A stretch of 64,000 nt of DNA from Rubrobacter aplysinae. Lineage in GTDB: Bacteria > Actinomycetota > Rubrobacteria > Rubrobacterales > Rubrobacteraceae. A model generated the notes under the pieces. That model did no database searches, was not told where the DNA came from, and saw only the letters and a list, made by a program, of their open reading frames with translations. The stretch is taken from contig NZ_LEKH01000006.1 in the NCBI RefSeq assembly GCF_001029505.1, forward strand, positions 62,001 to 126,000. The letters are read 5' to 3'. Shown here piece after piece: positions 26,913-38,636 of the stretch (position 1 is the stretch's first letter; each line of letters starts with the position of its first letter). The position numbers and the translations under genes were made by a program.

Positions 26913-27056
26913 CTACTCGTCCTTACTGATCCAGTAGGTAAAGAGCAAAGCCCCGGAGAACACGGACATCACCAGAAAGAACCCGATAAACAGCATGGCC
27001 GGTCCAGGGAAGGCCGCCTCCGCCAGCGTTAGATCCAGCATCTCCAGAGCTTGCAT
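26913..27056 (-). CDS. 47-residue single-helix membrane protein (CydX-like position)
   Basis: This short frame encodes 47 residues with one membrane helix (about residues 20-42) and ends Tyr-Trp-Ile-Ser-Lys-Asp-Glu. Its ATG overlaps the stop of the upstream cytochrome bd-like gene by one base (TAATG), so translation is coupled. Small single-helix subunits such as CydX and CydS stabilise heme pockets in cytochrome bd oxidases; position, size and topology suggest a similar role here, although I see no sequence match to CydX. Coding potential rests on overlap, hydrophobicity and context. Confidence 0.7.
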   Translation of the reverse strand: MQALEMLDLTLAEAAFPGPAMLFIGFFLVMSVFSGALLFTYWISKDE

Positions 27057-28399
27057 TAGCCGGCCTCCCGTCCAGAGATGGTGTTCACGCCGTCAGAGAC
27101 CGCCGGGCAGTTCTCGCTAACCACCTTCTGATCCAGGGTGATGCACTTGTAGATCAAATACCCGGGGTCATTGTCCACCCGGCGAGCCGACTCCCGGGTG
27201 TAGCCCATCGTGACCATCGTAAACACTATCGTCACAGAGCAGGCGATCAGGGCAAACTGGCTCCAGCGGCTGGCGTTGCCCCAGTGGAAGCCACTCGCCG
27301 ACGCTCTCAGATACAGCGCGACCACGAAGAACCCGACCAGCATCAGCCCGATCAGGCCGATGTACTTCCACGGGTACATCCCGCCGAGGGGTATCTGGGT
27401 TTCCTCACCACCGAGGAAGGTAATGCCGGTGGCAATGTGACCGTCGGCCGGTATCAGGTTCAGCACCGAGAACAGCGCGGTGAACGCCAGCCCTCCTATG
27501 GCAAGCTTGCGCAGGAAGGGCATCGGCCTCACCGAGAATCTCAGCTTGTGTACGAAGTAACCGGTAGCCGCCACCGCCAGCACCGTCAGCCAGATCATGA
27601 GCAGGTTGAAGGTAAAGGCGTTGTCGAGCATGATGCGGTCGAAGGCGTCGGGCGCGCTCTCGCGGATGCCCTTCATGTAGCCGTACCCGATCACGGGCTG
27701 CAGCATCGTGAACCCGAAGCCCCAGATGATCCCCCAGTGACCCATCCAGTCGTAGTAAGCCCGGTCGTCTTCGCGGGTGCTCTTCAGATACCGGAACCCG
27801 GCCCAGCCCGCGATCAGGAACCCGGCGTAGCCGAAGTTGCCCACGAAGCGGTGCATGTTCAAAGGCACCATCGTCTGGTTCAGGAAGGTCCGCGCAACGT
27901 CCGTAGCCGGCGCTTCTGCCGGGGTGAGCATGTACGAGGCCACCGCGTCTATCATGGTCATCGCCATCAGGCCGAAGAAGCCCGCGATAAATCCGAATAC
28001 CACGTGCAGGTTCTTGCGGTAGGCTAGTTTGTCCCACACGTTGTACCAGGCGTACACGATAATGATCTGCCCGAGGAACATGAAAGCCTCGACCAGAAAC
28101 ACCCAGAAAAAGATGTTCTGCAAATAAGAGAAGAACACCGGGAACAACGTGACCAGGGCCAGCACGAACGTAATGGCGAGCGCCGCCCCGGAGGCGAACA
28201 GGAGAACCACGAACCTGGCCAGGTTGCGGGCGAACCTCTCGTAGCGAGGCTGCTTGGTCACCATGCCCATGTACTCACTGGTCGCCGCTATCAGCACCGC
28301 GCCGATAATGAAGGCGGCGAAGAGTATGTGAGACTGGACGAGAACGGCGATTACGACGTTCTTGCCGACTATTGGTACGTTTATATCACCAATGGGCAT
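27056..28399 (-). CDS. Cytochrome bd subunit I-like protein, copy 2
   Basis: The 447-residue protein has nine or so membrane helices and resembles cytochrome bd subunit I (CydA). A first-helix His (Gln-Ser-His-Ile-Leu-Phe-Ala) fits the heme b595/d-type ligand, Phe-Leu-Val-Glu-Ala-Phe-Met keeps the conserved third-helix glutamate, and Met-His-Arg-Phe-Val-Gly-Asn matches the low-spin heme histidine. The Gly-Arg-Gln-Pro-Trp signature of quinol-oxidising CydA is missing. The C-terminal 40 residues are soluble with two cysteines but no Cys-x2-Cys-His. It lies downstream of the cytochrome b subunits in the operon. I infer it belongs to the non-canonical bd superfamily branches. Confidence 0.8.
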   Translation of the reverse strand: MPIGDINVPIVGKNVVIAVLVQSHILFAAFIIGAVLIAATSEYMGMVTKQPRYERFARNLARFVVLLFASGAALAITFVLALVTLFPVFFSYLQNIFFWVFLVEAFMFLGQIIIVYAWYNVWDKLAYRKNLHVVFGFIAGFFGLMAMTMIDAVASYMLTPAEAPATDVARTFLNQTMVPLNMHRFVGNFGYAGFLIAGWAGFRYLKSTREDDRAYYDWMGHWGIIWGFGFTMLQPVIGYGYMKGIRESAPDAFDRIMLDNAFTFNLLMIWLTVLAVAATGYFVHKLRFSVRPMPFLRKLAIGGLAFTALFSVLNLIPADGHIATGITFLGGEETQIPLGGMYPWKYIGLIGLMLVGFFVVALYLRASASGFHWGNASRWSQFALIACSVTIVFTMVTMGYTRESARRVDNDPGYLIYKCITLDQKVVSENCPAVSDGVNTISGREAG

Positions 28400-28415
28400 C
28401 CGCGCTTATACCCCC

Positions 28416-28898
28416 TCATCCACCTGGGAAGTTGATGATCCGGCTAACCGAGAGCATCATGTTCAGTATTACCACCACGATAACGAGCACGCCTATGATA
28501 GTAACGAACGGCCGCTTAAAGGCCGCGTAATGCGGGCTCGTGTCGAGCCAGGGCAGCGCAAACAGCAGCACGATGAAGATCGTCGGTATCACGACGGCTC
28601 CGAAGCTGATAAGCGCGTAGCCCGGGAAGAACATGAGCATCTGCTCGTAGAAGAAGAAGAACCACTCCGGCCGCGGCACGTAGTCCAGCGTCGCCGGGTT
28701 GGCGGGCTCGGACAGCGGTGCCGGAGACAGGTACGAGAGGGCTATACAGGCCACTAGCAGCGCGGTGGACACGTAGAGGTCGTAGAGCACCTGCTTCGGG
28801 AAGAACCCCATCGTCTCGTCTGGACGATCAAAGACGTTCTCCTCGGTGATTATCTCTTCTTCGGGAGATACCGACTTGTCAGGCGCCTTGGCCCACAT
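28416..28898 (-). CDS. Cytochrome b subunit IV-like protein
   Basis: This 160-residue protein has three membrane helices and corresponds to subunit IV of cytochrome b6f-type complexes, or the C-terminal part of cytochrome b. Pro-Glu-Trp-Phe near residue 78 replaces the usual Pro-Glu-Trp-Tyr quinol-site motif. The N-terminal 25 residues are acidic and soluble. It lies between the cytochrome b6-like gene and the second bd-like gene. With its neighbours it should form the quinol-oxidising site of a Rieske/cytochrome b complex. Confidence 0.88.
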   Translation of the reverse strand: MWAKAPDKSVSPEEEIITEENVFDRPDETMGFFPKQVLYDLYVSTALLVACIALSYLSPAPLSEPANPATLDYVPRPEWFFFFYEQMLMFFPGYALISFGAVVIPTIFIVLLFALPWLDTSPHYAAFKRPFVTIIGVLVIVVVILNMMLSVSRIINFPGG

Positions 28899-28984
28899 CT
28901 CTCACACCTCACCTTCTACAAGGATAGCTTTGGATAAGTTAGCAGCATCGTTGCGGTCATGGCGGTAAATACTCTTACTCCCCA

Positions 28985-29815
28985 TCATTCCCGTTCCCTG
29001 TAGCCCCGGTCCCCGTTAGAACCGTAGCCGTCCTCATCATCCTCGTACCCGTCTTCGAGCTCGTAGCGGGCCACCTCGTCGGCGGCCTGGTTCTCGTGCA
29101 GCTTGGAGAGCCGGTCGGTGTACTCGAACTCGCCGCCGAACACGCCGTGGCGGCGCATCAGGACGAGGTGGAGCCCGATCATGGGCGCTATGAGCGCGGG
29201 GAGCAGCCACACGTGGATGGCGAAGAAGCGGGATAACGTGGCCGGTCCGATCACATCGCCACCGAGCAAGAACTGTATCGTCTGCGCTCCGACGAGCGGA
29301 GAGTAGGAGCCGATCTTCATACCCACCACGGAGGCCCAGAAGCCGTCCTGGTCCCAGCGCAGGAGGTACCCGGTGAAGGCGAGCCCGATCACGAGCAAGA
29401 GCAGCACGACACCGATCACCCAGTTCAGCTCTCTCGGAGCCTTGTAGCCGCCGGAGAAAAAGACCTGGGCCATGTGCATCCCGATCACGGCCAGGAGAAA
29501 ATTCGCCGACCAGTAGTGGATACCCCGGATCAACTGCCCGAAGTAGGTGTCGTTCTGTATGAAGTAAACGGAGTTCCAGGCCTGCTCGATGGATGGCACG
29601 TAGTAGAAGAGCAGCAGGATGCCGGTAAGAAACTGTAACGTTATGAGGAATAGCGTGGCGCTGCCGAGGGTGTAGAGCCAGGCCCCGCGCTTGGGGACGG
29701 GCTCGTACAGCGTGTGCTCCATGAAGGTTACGACGCCGGTCCGGTGCTCCATCCAATCCACCATGAACTTGCTGGCGTCCGCGGTCTGGGAGCGGACCTT
29801 GCTTATCATGCCCAT
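28985..29815 (-). CDS. Cytochrome b6-like subunit
   Basis: The 276-residue protein has four membrane helices and two pairs of heme histidines: His100/His114 and His201/His216. The 14 intervening residues in the second pair are as in cytochrome b6 rather than mitochondrial-type cytochrome b. The split from subunit IV also fits the b6 type. After residue 235 an unusual acidic tail rich in Asp, Glu, Gly and Tyr follows. ATG lies eight bases after GGAGG. It follows the Rieske gene. Confidence 0.92.
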   Translation of the reverse strand: MGMISKVRSQTADASKFMVDWMEHRTGVVTFMEHTLYEPVPKRGAWLYTLGSATLFLITLQFLTGILLLFYYVPSIEQAWNSVYFIQNDTYFGQLIRGIHYWSANFLLAVIGMHMAQVFFSGGYKAPRELNWVIGVVLLLLVIGLAFTGYLLRWDQDGFWASVVGMKIGSYSPLVGAQTIQFLLGGDVIGPATLSRFFAIHVWLLPALIAPMIGLHLVLMRRHGVFGGEFEYTDRLSKLHENQAADEVARYELEDGYEDDEDGYGSNGDRGYRERE

Positions 29816-29885
29816 TCTCTAGGCCTCCTTTCCGGCTCTCCGCGCAGAGGCCACAGATACCATCTCCGGGCTCATGGACAGCGTG

Positions 29886-30557
29886 CTATATGACATGCGG
29901 CTCACCGTAGGGCGCGCTGCCGTCGAACTCGTGCTTTACGTACAGCTTACCGTCGTCGCGGACCTCGGCTTTGGGATACTCGTACATCCCCCGGGGCGGA
30001 GGACCGGCCACGTAGTCGCCGTTCAGGGTGTAGATGCCGCCGTGACAGGGGCAGAGAAACTCTCCCTGACCCTCTATCTCAAGCCAGCGCACCGGGCAGC
30101 CCAGGTGGGCGCAGGAGTTGCTCAGGATGTTCAGCTTGTCCAGGATCTCTTTCTTCTCCTGCTCGGAGAAGCCCTGGCTCTTGCTGTCCAGAAAGCCCGG
30201 CCGCTCGCTCTCTTTGGCGTGACCGCTCGGCGAGTACCATGAGAGCCAGATCAAGTTCCTCACGGTCGGGTCGTAGGCCTCGTTGCCGCTCTCTTCCTGA
30301 ATCTCCTCGTTACCGTATGACTGGGTGATCGGGAACTCCACCACGGTCGAGGTCGGCGCACCGGCCGGTATCTCACTGACGGACATGACCTCTTGCCACT
30401 CGTCCTTGACGTCGGATTTGCCCCGCACAACGTCTATAACCGGCCCGACCACGAAGAGGGTAGAGGGTACGACGAGCGCGGCCCCCATCACGCCGCCCAG
30501 CACGCCGAAACCCAGAAAGTCCCCGCGGCTTATACCGTCTTTCTGAAGATCTGCCAA
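29886..30557 (-). CDS. Rieske iron-sulfur protein
   Basis: This 223-residue protein has an N-terminal membrane anchor (about 14-40, preceded by Ser-Arg-Gly-Asp-Phe-Leu) and a Rieske domain with Cys149-x-His151-x2-Cys154 and Cys169-Pro-Cys171-His172-Gly-Gly binding the [2Fe-2S] cluster. Gly-Pro-Pro-Pro-Arg near residue 185 is the usual proline loop. It transfers electrons from quinol to the next carrier. It starts at TTG. Upstream is a bd-like gene rather than a cytochrome c gene, so the natural electron acceptor is not obvious. Confidence 0.94.
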   Translation of the reverse strand: MADLQKDGISRGDFLGFGVLGGVMGAALVVPSTLFVVGPVIDVVRGKSDVKDEWQEVMSVSEIPAGAPTSTVVEFPITQSYGNEEIQEESGNEAYDPTVRNLIWLSWYSPSGHAKESERPGFLDSKSQGFSEQEKKEILDKLNILSNSCAHLGCPVRWLEIEGQGEFLCPCHGGIYTLNGDYVAGPPPRGMYEYPKAEVRDDGKLYVKHEFDGSAPYGEPHVI

Positions 30558-30616
30558 CGCTTCGCCCTTTCCAGCTTCTAGTCCGGCTCCGTGTACGGGG
30601 ACCTTCCCCGCTGAAT

Positions 30617-31975
30617 CTAGCGACTACCCCCGAAGGCGCCGCCCTCGTAATCACTTATCTGCTGACTCTCTACTTTATAGTCTGGCTGATTATATACTGT
30701 GAACGGAACCCTAGAGTTGGACTTCATAAAGCCCATGTTGAGCGCCGTTACAGCCGCCAGCACCCCTATAGACAGCAGCACCACCCGGTACCAGGTCCCC
30801 GGGCTGCCGTAGCGGAAGCGCAGCCTGCCGCGCAGGTAGGTAACGAAGGCCCCGAGTGTGGCGAGCGCCATCACCAGCATCGCTATGTAGCGCATGTACA
30901 GGAACGGAAAATCGGCTATGGGCGAGATCGAGTACAGCCCGGCGACCGCCGCCACGAGCCCGAATATGCGGATCGGCACCCGCCCACCGCGGTCGGGGTG
31001 CCGTATCGCGCCCATGTACATCGCCACGTTCGAGAGCACGAAGAGCCCGACCACGAGGATGAGGTTTATCTTGAGCATGCTCGCGGTGTCACCACTGGTG
31101 AGCCGCTCGTAGGAGCCGCCCGAGAGCGCCTGACCCTGGGGATCCGCGGGGGCAGCGGTCTTCATGGCGTAGGCCGTGGCGAAGCCAACGAATGGCTGGA
31201 GCAGCAGGAAGCCCACCCCCCAGGTAAGCCCGACCGAAGTGCTCCAGTCGTAGAAGGACTTGTCCTCCGGCCGCTTCGCCCTCATGTACATGAAGGCGGC
31301 CCAGGTAGCCACCGCAAACGCCGGCCAGGAGAGGTTGGCGAAGGTCCGGTGCAAGACCATCTCGGTGAACATCGGGTTGAAGACGCCCTGCACGGCCACG
31401 GTGAAGTTCTGCACGTTGCCAGCGGAGAGCGCCGGGACTCCGGGGCCGCCACCGGTAGTCATGTAGGTATCTATTCCGGTCATGATGACCATCCAGATCC
31501 AGATAAAGAAACCCATGGTGAACCCGAGAGCGATGTGACGCCGCTTGTGCAGCATCGCGTACTTGTCCCACTTGTAGTAGTAGCTGTACATGCCCCACAG
31601 CGCGAGCCCCATGGAGGCCATCGCCACCACGATGAGCAGGAAGAAGTGGGTAAACAGCGAGCCCGTGACCCGCGGATAGAACCCGACCAAAAGCACCATG
31701 AAGAGCACCGCGAACGTGGCCCCCGTGGAGAACGTCAGGACATTGAACCGCGTCATGGAGTGCGCCAGCCGGTCCATCCTCGGGCTACCCGTGCGGGCCC
31801 CCCAGGCCTGGAGTACCGGCGAGGCTATGGCAAACCCGACGAAGAGCTGGGCGAAGAACATGTGGACCAGCATCGTGATCCCCGTGAAAGCCCGGGTCCC
31901 ACCCGGAAAGCTGAACGCCTGACCGAGGTCTATCTGGCCTAGAAACCAGAGGTTTGGAGAGATGGCTACAAGCAC
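30617..31975 (-). CDS. Cytochrome bd subunit I-like protein, copy 1
   Basis: The 452-residue membrane protein resembles cytochrome bd subunit I. It has a first-helix His (Leu-Val-His-Met-Phe-Phe-Ala-Gln) and a Leu-His-Arg-Thr-Phe-Ala-Asn segment matching the low-spin heme histidine. Unlike the second copy, the third-helix glutamate motif is missing (Phe-Phe-Leu-Leu-Ile-Val-Val), and there is no Gly-Arg-Gln-Pro-Trp. The two copies may form a CydAA'-like heterodimer in which only one carries a full active site; this is inference. It starts at GTG after AAGGAG and is 15 bases from the two-helix protein upstream. Confidence 0.8.
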   Translation of the reverse strand: MLVAISPNLWFLGQIDLGQAFSFPGGTRAFTGITMLVHMFFAQLFVGFAIASPVLQAWGARTGSPRMDRLAHSMTRFNVLTFSTGATFAVLFMVLLVGFYPRVTGSLFTHFFLLIVVAMASMGLALWGMYSYYYKWDKYAMLHKRRHIALGFTMGFFIWIWMVIMTGIDTYMTTGGGPGVPALSAGNVQNFTVAVQGVFNPMFTEMVLHRTFANLSWPAFAVATWAAFMYMRAKRPEDKSFYDWSTSVGLTWGVGFLLLQPFVGFATAYAMKTAAPADPQGQALSGGSYERLTSGDTASMLKINLILVVGLFVLSNVAMYMGAIRHPDRGGRVPIRIFGLVAAVAGLYSISPIADFPFLYMRYIAMLVMALATLGAFVTYLRGRLRFRYGSPGTWYRVVLLSIGVLAAVTALNMGFMKSNSRVPFTVYNQPDYKVESQQISDYEGGAFGGSR

Positions 31976-31990
31976 TCTTCTATACTCCTT

Positions 31991-32623
31991 CTAGGCCTTC
32001 TGGGCGCCGATGATCGGGCCTCCGAGGTCGCTCGACCCTATCCTGTGCAAAGTCGCCTGGTGTACTGCCCGGGGCTCGAGACGCCGGTTGACTATATAGT
32101 AGGTCGCCCCCTGCCGCTGCAACGCCTCCCGGATGGGCCGGATCATCTTCCGGTCCCGGACGGTGGCGAAGACCAGCACCCGACCCATCTCGAACTCGTC
32201 GTTCCAGATGCCGGCCTCCTGGCGGGGAGCTTCCATGTCGGTGAGTATCGGGGAGATCCCCACCCTGGTAAACGACCCCGCAACCAGGATGGCCGCCAGA
32301 GACATGAACACCACGAAGGTCGGTATCCCGATGGCCGGCACGACGAGCGCGAAGAAGATGCCGAGCAGGACGAAGGACACGGCGAAGCCTATCGGCACCT
32401 CGAGCCCCCGGCGGTCGTCCGGGATGGTTATGTACCGCGTCCCCTGCGGAAAGGGCTCCTGCTGGGCCGTGGCCGGGCGCTTTAGGACGACGGTCATGTC
32501 GTCGGGGCCCACGCCGAGGTCCCGCACCTCCTTGACGGCTTGGTTCAACTCGACGCCGTCGTTTACCACCCCAATCATGGTGTACTCGGAGCCTGGCTCC
32601 TGAGACTCCCGGGATATACCCAA
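31991..32623 (-). CDS. Two-helix membrane protein with ActD/GSP17M-like layout
   Basis: The 210-residue protein has a soluble N-terminal domain (15-50, resembling the general stress protein 17M fold: Gly-Val-Val-Asn-Asp plus a helix), two adjacent membrane helices (about 80-125), and a C-terminal soluble domain. ActD of alternative complex III has the same order of parts. It is the first gene of the respiratory operon, starting at TTG after GGAGGTAGGG. I propose an assembly or structural subunit of the Rieske/b/bd-like complex. No heme or metal motif is present. Confidence 0.65.
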   Translation of the reverse strand: MGISRESQEPGSEYTMIGVVNDGVELNQAVKEVRDLGVGPDDMTVVLKRPATAQQEPFPQGTRYITIPDDRRGLEVPIGFAVSFVLLGIFFALVVPAIGIPTFVVFMSLAAILVAGSFTRVGISPILTDMEAPRQEAGIWNDEFEMGRVLVFATVRDRKMIRPIREALQRQGATYYIVNRRLEPRAVHQATLHRIGSSDLGGPIIGAQKA

Positions 32624-32711: not shown

Positions 32712-32895
32712 TCCACGACCGATAGGATACATGCCCGCCCGCAAGCGGACCACCCCGCTCCGAGTATCGCCGGTAACTCTTTCACGCAGCCTCTCCGCCC
32801 GGCTCCCTGTATTTCATGCGTCCTTGTTTTATCCGTGCCTCGAACGGAAGACGCACATTGTGAAGGTTTGACCGGTTTATGCCCCGGGGCTCGGT

Positions 32896-32908
32896 TAGAA
32901 TTCGGGCC
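32896..32908 (+). promoter_or_regulatory. -10 box of a leaderless promoter
   Basis: TAGAAT at 32896-32901 lies exactly seven bases before the GTG at 32909. A TTGACC at 32868 resembles a -35 but the 22-base spacer is too long, so the -35 is uncertain. No Shine-Dalgarno precedes the start. Confidence 0.5.
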
Positions 32909-33589
32909 GTGGACACCAGAGACGCTCAAAGACCGCTACGGCCGGGCGAGTACCCGGACAGGGAGATGCCCGACGAGCCGGGACTCGGGCGTTGGATCAA
33001 GCGCAACCCCTGGCTCCTGACCCGCCTGTTCATGGTGATAGTCTTCTCGTTCGGGGCGACCGCGACCGCGGCCAACTTCTCCTACGGGCTGGAGATCAAC
33101 CCGATACCGCTCTCGGTGGAGCAGATCAACTCCGGCGAGCTCCCCCCGGAGGCGGAGCTCGAGGACTTCGTCGAGATCACCGGCACCCCGGACTACGGCG
33201 AGGACACGCGCCGCATCGGCACCGAGGAGTCCAGTATAGGCTTCGTCCAGCGTTACAGCGCAAACTACTTCTACTTCGGTCTGGAGGAGACCGAAGACAA
33301 CCTCCTGATACAGTCCGCCCAGACCCCGCCGGACGTTACGGACGAGAGCGAGCGGGTGTGGCGCGGCAAGCTCTCCAACGTGGGGACCGTCATCTTCCAC
33401 GACACCACCAGAGACGGCCTCAAAAACGCGGGACTCACTACTAATCAGAGCGTCCCGATAATCGAGACCGGAGACACCCCGAACTACTACCGGCAGATCT
33501 TCCCGGCCTACTCCACGATACTCGGGCTGTGGGTCCTCTCCTTGGCCTGGCTCGTCTGGAAGCGAAACAAGCCCTTCCTGGACGAGTAA
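32909..33589 (+). CDS. Membrane protein with two terminal helices and an extracytoplasmic domain
   Basis: This 226-residue protein has an N-terminal helix (about 32-55), an extracytoplasmic domain of roughly 140 residues rich in Glu, Asp and Thr, and a C-terminal helix (about 200-220) ending Lys-Pro-Phe-Leu-Asp-Glu. The layout is like SURF1, an oxidase assembly factor, but I see no clear sequence match. It is divergent from the respiratory operon and could share its control. GTG at 32909 was chosen because a TAGAAT box lies seven bases before it. Confidence 0.7.
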   Translation: MDTRDAQRPLRPGEYPDREMPDEPGLGRWIKRNPWLLTRLFMVIVFSFGATATAANFSYGLEINPIPLSVEQINSGELPPEAELEDFVEITGTPDYGEDTRRIGTEESSIGFVQRYSANYFYFGLEETEDNLLIQSAQTPPDVTDESERVWRGKLSNVGTVIFHDTTRDGLKNAGLTTNQSVPIIETGDTPNYYRQIFPAYSTILGLWVLSLAWLVWKRNKPFLDE

Positions 33590-37838: not shown

Positions 37839-38636
37839 ATGCAGCTTGCGTTGTTGCAGGGAGTACTGGGAGAGTTGGTACAGGAGGGCAGTTCGGTCTT
37901 CTGGCTCTGGATCGGGGCTGGCGGCTTCTTCCTCGCTACCGCATGGTTCGTTTATCTGGCCGCTACCAGCGGTGGCAGTCACACTCACCACTATGTAGCT
38001 AGCACCATTATCGTGCTCTGGGCTGGCGTGTGGTACGCGATAATGGCCACCGGCGGTGCCATCTCTCTCGTTTCGGGCCCCGGCGGCGAGCCGGTGGTGT
38101 ACTACTTTGGTCGCTACATAGACTGGACGCTAACGACTCCCCTGCTGCTCCTGGGCCTGGCCTGGGTCGGTCTCGGCGGCACAGGAGTAGGAAACAGGTC
38201 AGGCTTGATCTGGGGCCTCGTCATCGCCGACGTGCTGATGATCCTGACCGGTGTTGTGGCCGGTGCGACCACCGCGTTCGTGTCCGGGCTTTTCTTCGTG
38301 CTCAGCACCATCTTCTTCCTGATCGTACTCGCTCTCGTCTGGGGTCCGCTGCGCTCCGCGGCCCAGCAGGGTGAGCCGGAGGGCGGCTTTGGGCTGTTCT
38401 ACACCCTGGCTACCATGCTGACGGTGCTCTGGATCATCTACCCGATCGTGTGGCTGATCGGTACCGAAGGCGCCGGGCTCGTTACGGCCCCGATCGAGGT
38501 CTTCCTCTACGCGGTTCTGGATGTCCTGGCGAAGATAGCCTTCGGCGCTATCCTGCTCGGCGGCGTCAGGCGCGCCTCGGGTGGCCAGCAGCAGAGCGGC
38601 GGTGGCTCCCAGAGAAGGGCCGCCCGGGTTAGCTAG
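37839..38636 (+). CDS. Microbial (type 1) rhodopsin with a DTG motif
   Basis: This 265-residue seven-helix protein binds retinal through Lys232 in helix G (Asp228-Val-Leu-Ala-Lys232). Helix C reads Gly-Arg92-Tyr-Ile-Asp95-Trp-Thr-Leu-Thr99-Thr-Pro and then Gly106 at the position of the bacteriorhodopsin proton donor Asp96. The motif is therefore DTG. Trp96, Trp198, Tyr201, Pro202 and Trp205 line the retinal pocket. The acceptor Asp fits a proton pump; DTG-type rhodopsins have been reported to pump protons outward without a carboxylic donor. It starts at ATG behind AAGGAAGGGG, 87 bases after the DUF2273 gene. A terminator follows. No retinal-synthesis gene is in the window. Confidence 0.96.
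   Translation: MQLALLQGVLGELVQEGSSVFWLWIGAGGFFLATAWFVYLAATSGGSHTHHYVASTIIVLWAGVWYAIMATGGAISLVSGPGGEPVVYYFGRYIDWTLTTPLLLLGLAWVGLGGTGVGNRSGLIWGLVIADVLMILTGVVAGATTAFVSGLFFVLSTIFFLIVLALVWGPLRSAAQQGEPEGGFGLFYTLATMLTVLWIIYPIVWLIGTEGAGLVTAPIEVFLYAVLDVLAKIAFGAILLGGVRRASGGQQQSGGGSQRRAARVS

Follow-up and report, generated by a model that had tools for sequence, protein, structure and literature searches.

In the textbook account of aerobic respiration, complex III is linked to the terminal oxidases via c-type cytochromes, and the bd oxidases are quinol oxidases that bypass complex III. The bd superfamily is reported to include a class termed OR-N, named in a classification by Murali, Gennis and Hemp from 2021. 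OR-N CydAA′ proteins are known by sequence in the Nitrospinota and the Nitrospirales, with cytochrome c as the supposed electron donor (PMC10839748, PMC12342949). Nitrospira moscoviensis has two bd-like genes in the region of its Rieske/cytochrome b complex, for which a III–IV supercomplex has been proposed (PMC6606698), and in the Nitrospirales alternative complex III (ACIII) is found with an OR-N5 CydAA′ encoded directly downstream (PMC12342949). The genus Rubrobacter has been described as obligately aerobic (PMC8146576), and an earlier survey reported the Rubrobacteria to be without cytochrome c oxidase and assigned to them a ‘cytochrome bd ubiquinol oxidase’ (PMC7901476). Here we describe a seven-gene operon of Rubrobacter aplysinae, found on the minus strand at positions 26913–32623 of a stretch of 64,000 nucleotides from contig NZ_LEKH01000006.1 (hereafter the window), in which the genes for a Rieske/cytochrome b complex are sandwiched between those for two CydA-like (bd-like) proteins. 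The genome that contains the window comprises 3.19 Mb and is 98.9% complete, and the module was followed through 40 genomes of the Rubrobacterales, an order whose hardy members live in deserts and hot springs; 22 of these genomes are of high quality. The operon probably encodes one quinol:oxygen oxidoreductase system, in which a heterodimeric bd-like oxidase would receive its electrons directly from the Rieske protein. A fuller version, to which we give about even chances, is that the products form a single quinol:O2 supercomplex free of c-type cytochrome, with the Rieske head directly reducing a heterodimeric bd-family oxidase, and that this system is ancestral and, in some species of the whole order, the sole respiratory oxidase.

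The genes of the operon, in the order of transcription, and the gene that flanks it are as follows.

31991–32623, minus strand: two-helix protein of 210 residues, operon gene 1, with a soluble N-terminal part, two membrane helices and a C-terminal part
30617–31975, minus strand: bd-like copy 1, 452 residues, about 10 transmembrane helices (Pfam PF01654, E=2.9e-12)
29886–30557, minus strand: Rieske [2Fe-2S] protein (PF00355, E=1.4e-8)
28985–29815, minus strand: cytochrome b6-type subunit, 276 residues (PF00033, E=1.2e-45; top PDB match cytochrome b6)
28416–28898, minus strand: subunit IV, the C-terminal part of cytochrome b (PetD), 160 residues (PF00032, E=3.8e-6)
27056–28399, minus strand: bd-like copy 2, 447 residues, about 10 transmembrane helices (PF01654, E=3.5e-20)
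26913–27056, minus strand: single-helix protein of 47 residues with a conserved FTYWIS-type ending, last gene of the operon and 3′ of copy 2 in the loci
32879–33589, plus strand: divergent membrane protein of 236 residues flanking the operon, its soluble domain framed by two terminal helices

An earlier note on this DNA, made from the sequence alone, had given the same seven reading frames in the same order, and both the open reading frames and the Pfam matches bear this out; the intergenic gaps along the operon are 15, 59, 70, 86, 16 and −1 nt. In the Rieske protein, the pattern C-x-H-x-G-C ... C-P-C-H-G is invariant (C149, H151, C154, C169, C171, H172), such that all cluster and disulfide Cys and His residues are present. 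The cytochrome b6, which is the only PF00033 cytochrome b of its own genome, has four conserved heme-ligand His residues (H100, H114, H201, H216), and subunit IV contains the conserved Qo motif PEWF (E78, W79). A c-type subunit (c1, f or cc) was not found: the C-x2-4-C-H heme motif occurs in none of the seven window proteins and in none of 197 module proteins from orthologous loci, which extends the observation of the earlier note that no Cys-x2-Cys-His protein is encoded here, and the CBB3-type cytochrome c domain (PF13442) is absent from the genome that contains the window. Neither the two-helix protein nor the 47-residue protein matches a Pfam family above threshold; the latter is a putative small accessory subunit. 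The former had been labelled ActD-like, a label that describes the layout of the protein but fails by sequence, since DUF3341, the ActD family, matches none of 11 members and the best match is a weak one to YflT (E=0.0027). The c-heme motif that would mark the multiheme ActA of ACIII is likewise missing.

The two bd-like proteins differ at the positions that matter for heme binding, as seen in ligand-column alignments of 29 copy-1 and 29 copy-2 sequences. Copy 2 keeps His24, Glu104, His183, Glu403 and Arg406 in all 29: H24, E104 and H183 align with H21, E101 and H186 of the Geobacillus protein, and E403-x-x-R406 falls on the Glu and Arg columns of canonical E-x-G-R-Q-P-W. The heme roles of the residues are presumably those generally assigned in the bd oxidases. 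Copy 1 keeps His38, His209 and Arg422, but its third-helix Glu is replaced by Met119 (29/29) and the position of the second heme-ligand Glu is taken by Ser419. The His pairs H24/H38 and H183/H209 are invariant and align with the His residues of the quinol oxidases. The contrast drawn by the earlier note, of a copy 2 with the third-helix glutamate and a copy 1 without it, thus holds throughout; its statement that neither copy has the GRQPW quinol motif is also correct for the 29 sequences of each copy, but copy 2 retains a remnant of this region in E403-x-x-R406. In the structural models, extra helices are predicted to occupy the region of the quinol loop (Q-loop) in both proteins, and the best Foldseek matches of both models are solved CydA subunits (pLDDT 79 for copy 2).

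Phylogenetic analysis places both proteins outside the quinol oxidases, as the reading of the earlier note required. The maximum-likelihood tree held copies 1 and 2, quinol oxidases and one OR-C-like row, with no OR-N sequence in it; copy 1 (100/99), copy 2 (100/99) and the quinol oxidases (100/100) form one group each, and copies 1 and 2 join in a group (96/87) that stands away from the quinol oxidases and adjoins the OR-C-like protein, which lies on a very long branch. One alternative to be weighed here is that the pair oxidises quinol directly at a site of its own, with the b6-type complex standing alongside for proton translocation or regulation. Archaeal CydAA′ is said to oxidise quinol, a finding attributed to Murali et al. 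in 2021, and the E403-x-x-R406 of copy 2 sits in the very region of GRQPW; set against the missing motif, the extra helices at the Q-loop position and the distance of both proteins from the quinol oxidases in the tree, however, such a site seems to us improbable. Pfam matches and loci alike show two CydA-like paralogues encoded together in the module, which has no gene for CydB, whereas the canonical CydA loci of the same genome do. Counts of helices and of positive charges (the positive-inside rule) predict that each bd-like protein has its two termini outside, on the face that a Rieske head would share. In copy 2, Cys419 and Cys431, which are invariant in the 29 sequences, fall in the tail predicted to be outside, so the pair would lie on the side where the Rieske head works, where it could form a disulfide, a metal site or an electron-entry site.

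Of the 40 Rubrobacterales genomes, 35 contain copy 2, among them all 22 of high quality, and in all intact loci (about 21 were checked) the seven genes stand in the identical order listed above. The conservation in relatives on which the earlier note had staked its reading is therefore found at every intact locus, and chance falls far short of explaining the arrangement. The named collection has matching loci from Rubrobacter marinus, R. taiwanensis and metagenome bins of Rubrobacteraceae or actinobacteria. Across a sample of 397 genomes of the phylum, full-length relatives were found solely in the Rubrobacteraceae, with three weak matches elsewhere, one of which carries GRQPW; a scan of viral contigs gave no match, and the plasmid searches yielded two proteins, one of them OR-C-like and the other annotated as a quinol oxidase.

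Several genomes contain an old and divergent duplicate of the entire module in the same order, complete in three loci (L066, L067, L069) and interrupted by contig ends in three others (L068, L071, L072). Trees of the cytochrome b6, subunit IV, Rieske and two-helix proteins each split these paralogues from the main copies with support of 98–99, and the same division runs through the clades of bd copy 1 and copy 2. That the genes were duplicated and retained together is what would be expected of the parts of one machine, and they behave as one unit. The survey term ‘cytochrome bd ubiquinol oxidase’ for Rubrobacteria (PMC7901476) would fit a simpler idea, namely that ordinary quinol bd oxidase genes happen to lie beside a bc operon. 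Chance adjacency is already refuted by the conserved order and the tree, given an interleaved arrangement kept in all loci and duplicated as a module, a clade outside the quinol oxidases and a module without CydB, and we hold it to be almost certainly wrong. The second module of locus L069 lies 3′ of a formate dehydrogenase operon, which suggests a dedicated formate-to-oxygen chain. Orphan copy-2 genes without module neighbours occur at L063:6582–7913, L064:6134–7501 and L065:6906–8264, in genomes where the complete module is present too, and the genome of the window itself holds a 41-residue remnant of copy 2, 73% identical, at G000:C9:92664–92786 (in locus L074), which is probably a decayed duplicate.

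The remainder of the respiratory chain was surveyed across the same 40 genomes. PF00115 (COX1) has matches in two of these, G005 and G024; the two proteins (the loci are L172:65–2353 and L082:1351–3690) both proved to be quinol nitric oxide reductases rather than heme-copper oxidases; no oxygen-reducing heme-copper oxidase was found among the 40. AOX was also found in none, a weak absence, as the search had no working positive control. Canonical CydA is missing from seven of the 22 high-quality genomes (G002, G012, G014, G016, G019, G022 and G023), one of which, G014, is closed (one contig of 3,225,748 bases), and the bd-family proteins of several genomes are all of a non-quinol type. With neither a heme-copper oxidase nor a canonical CydA in these seven near-complete genomes, the module is the one candidate for a respiratory oxidase that the sequence searches leave to these obligate aerobes. 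An alternative in which the bd-like proteins are no oxygen reductases at all, and instead transfer electrons or serve as anchors within a modified bc complex that has another acceptor, has to be judged against this background. Two Glu positions are indeed gone from copy 1, and a role like that of alternative complex III has been proposed for the bd-like proteins of Nitrospina (PMC3578206); yet copy 2 retains the active-site ligand positions, and G014, G016 and other obligate aerobes would then be without any O2 reductase among the families searched, so we accord this alternative a small chance.

System II maturation of cytochrome c needs ResB. This marker was found in none of the 40 genomes, five control genomes being positive, and PF13442 in one; the search for cytochrome c consisted of these two families and took in neither the Ccm proteins nor further families of cytochrome c. 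The absence of a cytochrome c partner, which the earlier note had claimed for the locus, accordingly applies to the module and, by these markers, to nearly all of the order. Copper-binding proteins were not found in the genome of the window or in G012, G014, G015 and G016, among which G014 and G015 are closed. These counts bear on the possibility that the bd-like pair is a separate oxidase of OR-N type, co-regulated with the neighbouring bc-type complex but not part of one complex with it, and fed by a soluble carrier (an unrecognised cytochrome c, a cupredoxin or another protein) which that complex reduces. Cytochrome c has been put forward as the donor for the OR-N CydAA′ of Nitrospinota and Nitrospirota (PMC10839748), a plasmid of Agrobacterium encodes an OR-C-like relative with a c domain of its own, and copper-binding proteins occur in 12 of the 40 genomes. 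Since ResB and PF13442 are absent or nearly so, the closed genomes G014 and G015 have no copper-binding protein and no module contains a carrier gene, we judge a soluble carrier unlikely, albeit worth keeping in mind.

We return to direct transfer within one system. Given a bc-type complex, no detected c cytochrome, no heme-copper oxidase and a shared operon, the simplest path runs from quinol through the Qo site and the Rieske cluster to a bd-like heme, then to copy 2 and O2. The first two of these steps follow from the motifs and we infer the remainder. The cytochrome b6/subunit IV pair, with its four heme His residues and PEW motif, would oxidise menaquinol at the Qo site, one electron going to the low-potential heme b while the second enters the Rieske cluster. 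The head of the Rieske protein, at the outer face, may then directly reduce a b558-like heme that would lie near the same face in the bd-like heterodimer, and such direct transfer would make a cytochrome c1 or c unnecessary. Copy 2, which keeps the active-site ligand positions H24/E104 and E403 together with H183, would be the catalytic subunit and the site of O2 reduction, whilst copy 1, with H38 and H209 but neither Glu, would be the electron-entry or partner subunit, related to copy 2 as A′ is to A. Such a module would act as the main respiratory oxidase of the Rubrobacterales, in some species as the sole one, and, unlike a canonical bd oxidase, it would gain in proton economy from a Q cycle.

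Several points weigh against this proposal. The bd-like models are of medium confidence (pLDDT 79 and 83); the genome of the window also has two canonical CydAB pairs, so that the module is not the sole route to O2 here; cupredoxin-type genes are present in those 12 relatives; and a soluble carrier may belong to a family outside those searched. The lack of heme-copper oxidases, the seven near-complete genomes without canonical CydA and the co-duplication of the module make it much likelier than the earlier note could tell that the bd-like pair takes electrons from, or acts together with, the bc complex. The earlier note had proposed a CydAA′-like pair fed by, or working together with, a bc-type complex: its genetic predictions stand, whilst the heme content, the joint physical complex, the electron path and the reduction of O2 are what we infer.

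Upstream of the module, the divergent gene at 32879–33589 is kept in nearly all main loci. Its product matches no Pfam family, and the outer domain and SURF1-like layout make it a possible candidate for an assembly factor. A bacteriorhodopsin-like gene (PF01036) lies about 5 kb from the module, at 37839–38636 of the window.

If the proposal is true, a bc–bd module without cytochrome c that serves as main oxidase in obligate aerobes, cultured strains and one closed genome among them, would break both of the textbook rules set out above. It would also provide a tractable host in which to test the OR-N-like bd oxidases, which are biochemically uncharacterised in the literature surveyed, and would correct the annotation of the Rubrobacteria as users of an ordinary bd ubiquinol oxidase (PMC7901476).

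The module shares with the OR-N CydAA′ of Nitrospirota and Nitrospinota the two CydA-like paralogues, the lack of a quinol motif, the extra helices in place of the Q-loop and the proposed role of an oxygen reductase acting after complex III. The Nitrospira cluster, however, contains several c-type cytochromes and has cytochrome c as its supposed donor, whereas in the Rubrobacterales the bd-like genes sandwich those for the Rieske and cytochrome b proteins, the module encodes no c-type cytochrome and the genomes gave almost none. The pairing of ACIII with OR-N5 likewise sets a quinol-oxidising complex beside a CydAA′-type pair, but that complex is ActABCDE, with multiheme subunits, and here it is a Rieske/cytochrome b6–subunit IV complex. 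The OR-C bd-like oxidases have the CydA-like core in common with the module but carry a cytochrome c domain that it lacks; the OR-C-like gene on the conjugative Agrobacterium plasmid NZ_CP092895 (L163:3648–6704), which lies in a small cluster and encodes such a domain, gives a protein with a 26–28% match over the first half. Canonical CydAB shares the fold and the core ligand positions but has GRQPW and CydB, in place of which the module has neither, two CydA-like subunits and a distant position in the tree. In the actinobacterial bcc–aa3 supercomplex and the archaeal Sox complexes, quinol is oxidised by a bc part that feeds its oxidase directly, with no cytochrome c diffusing between the two, although the oxidase in both is of the heme-copper type and the actinobacterial complex has a fixed diheme c subunit, unlike this bd-type module free of c heme. 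A c-free supercomplex of this kind would, to our knowledge, be the first case of a bd-type oxidase coupled to a bc-type complex with no c heme involved. What appears to be new is the interleaved c-free operon, its conservation across a whole order and its role as the sole candidate oxidase in some species.

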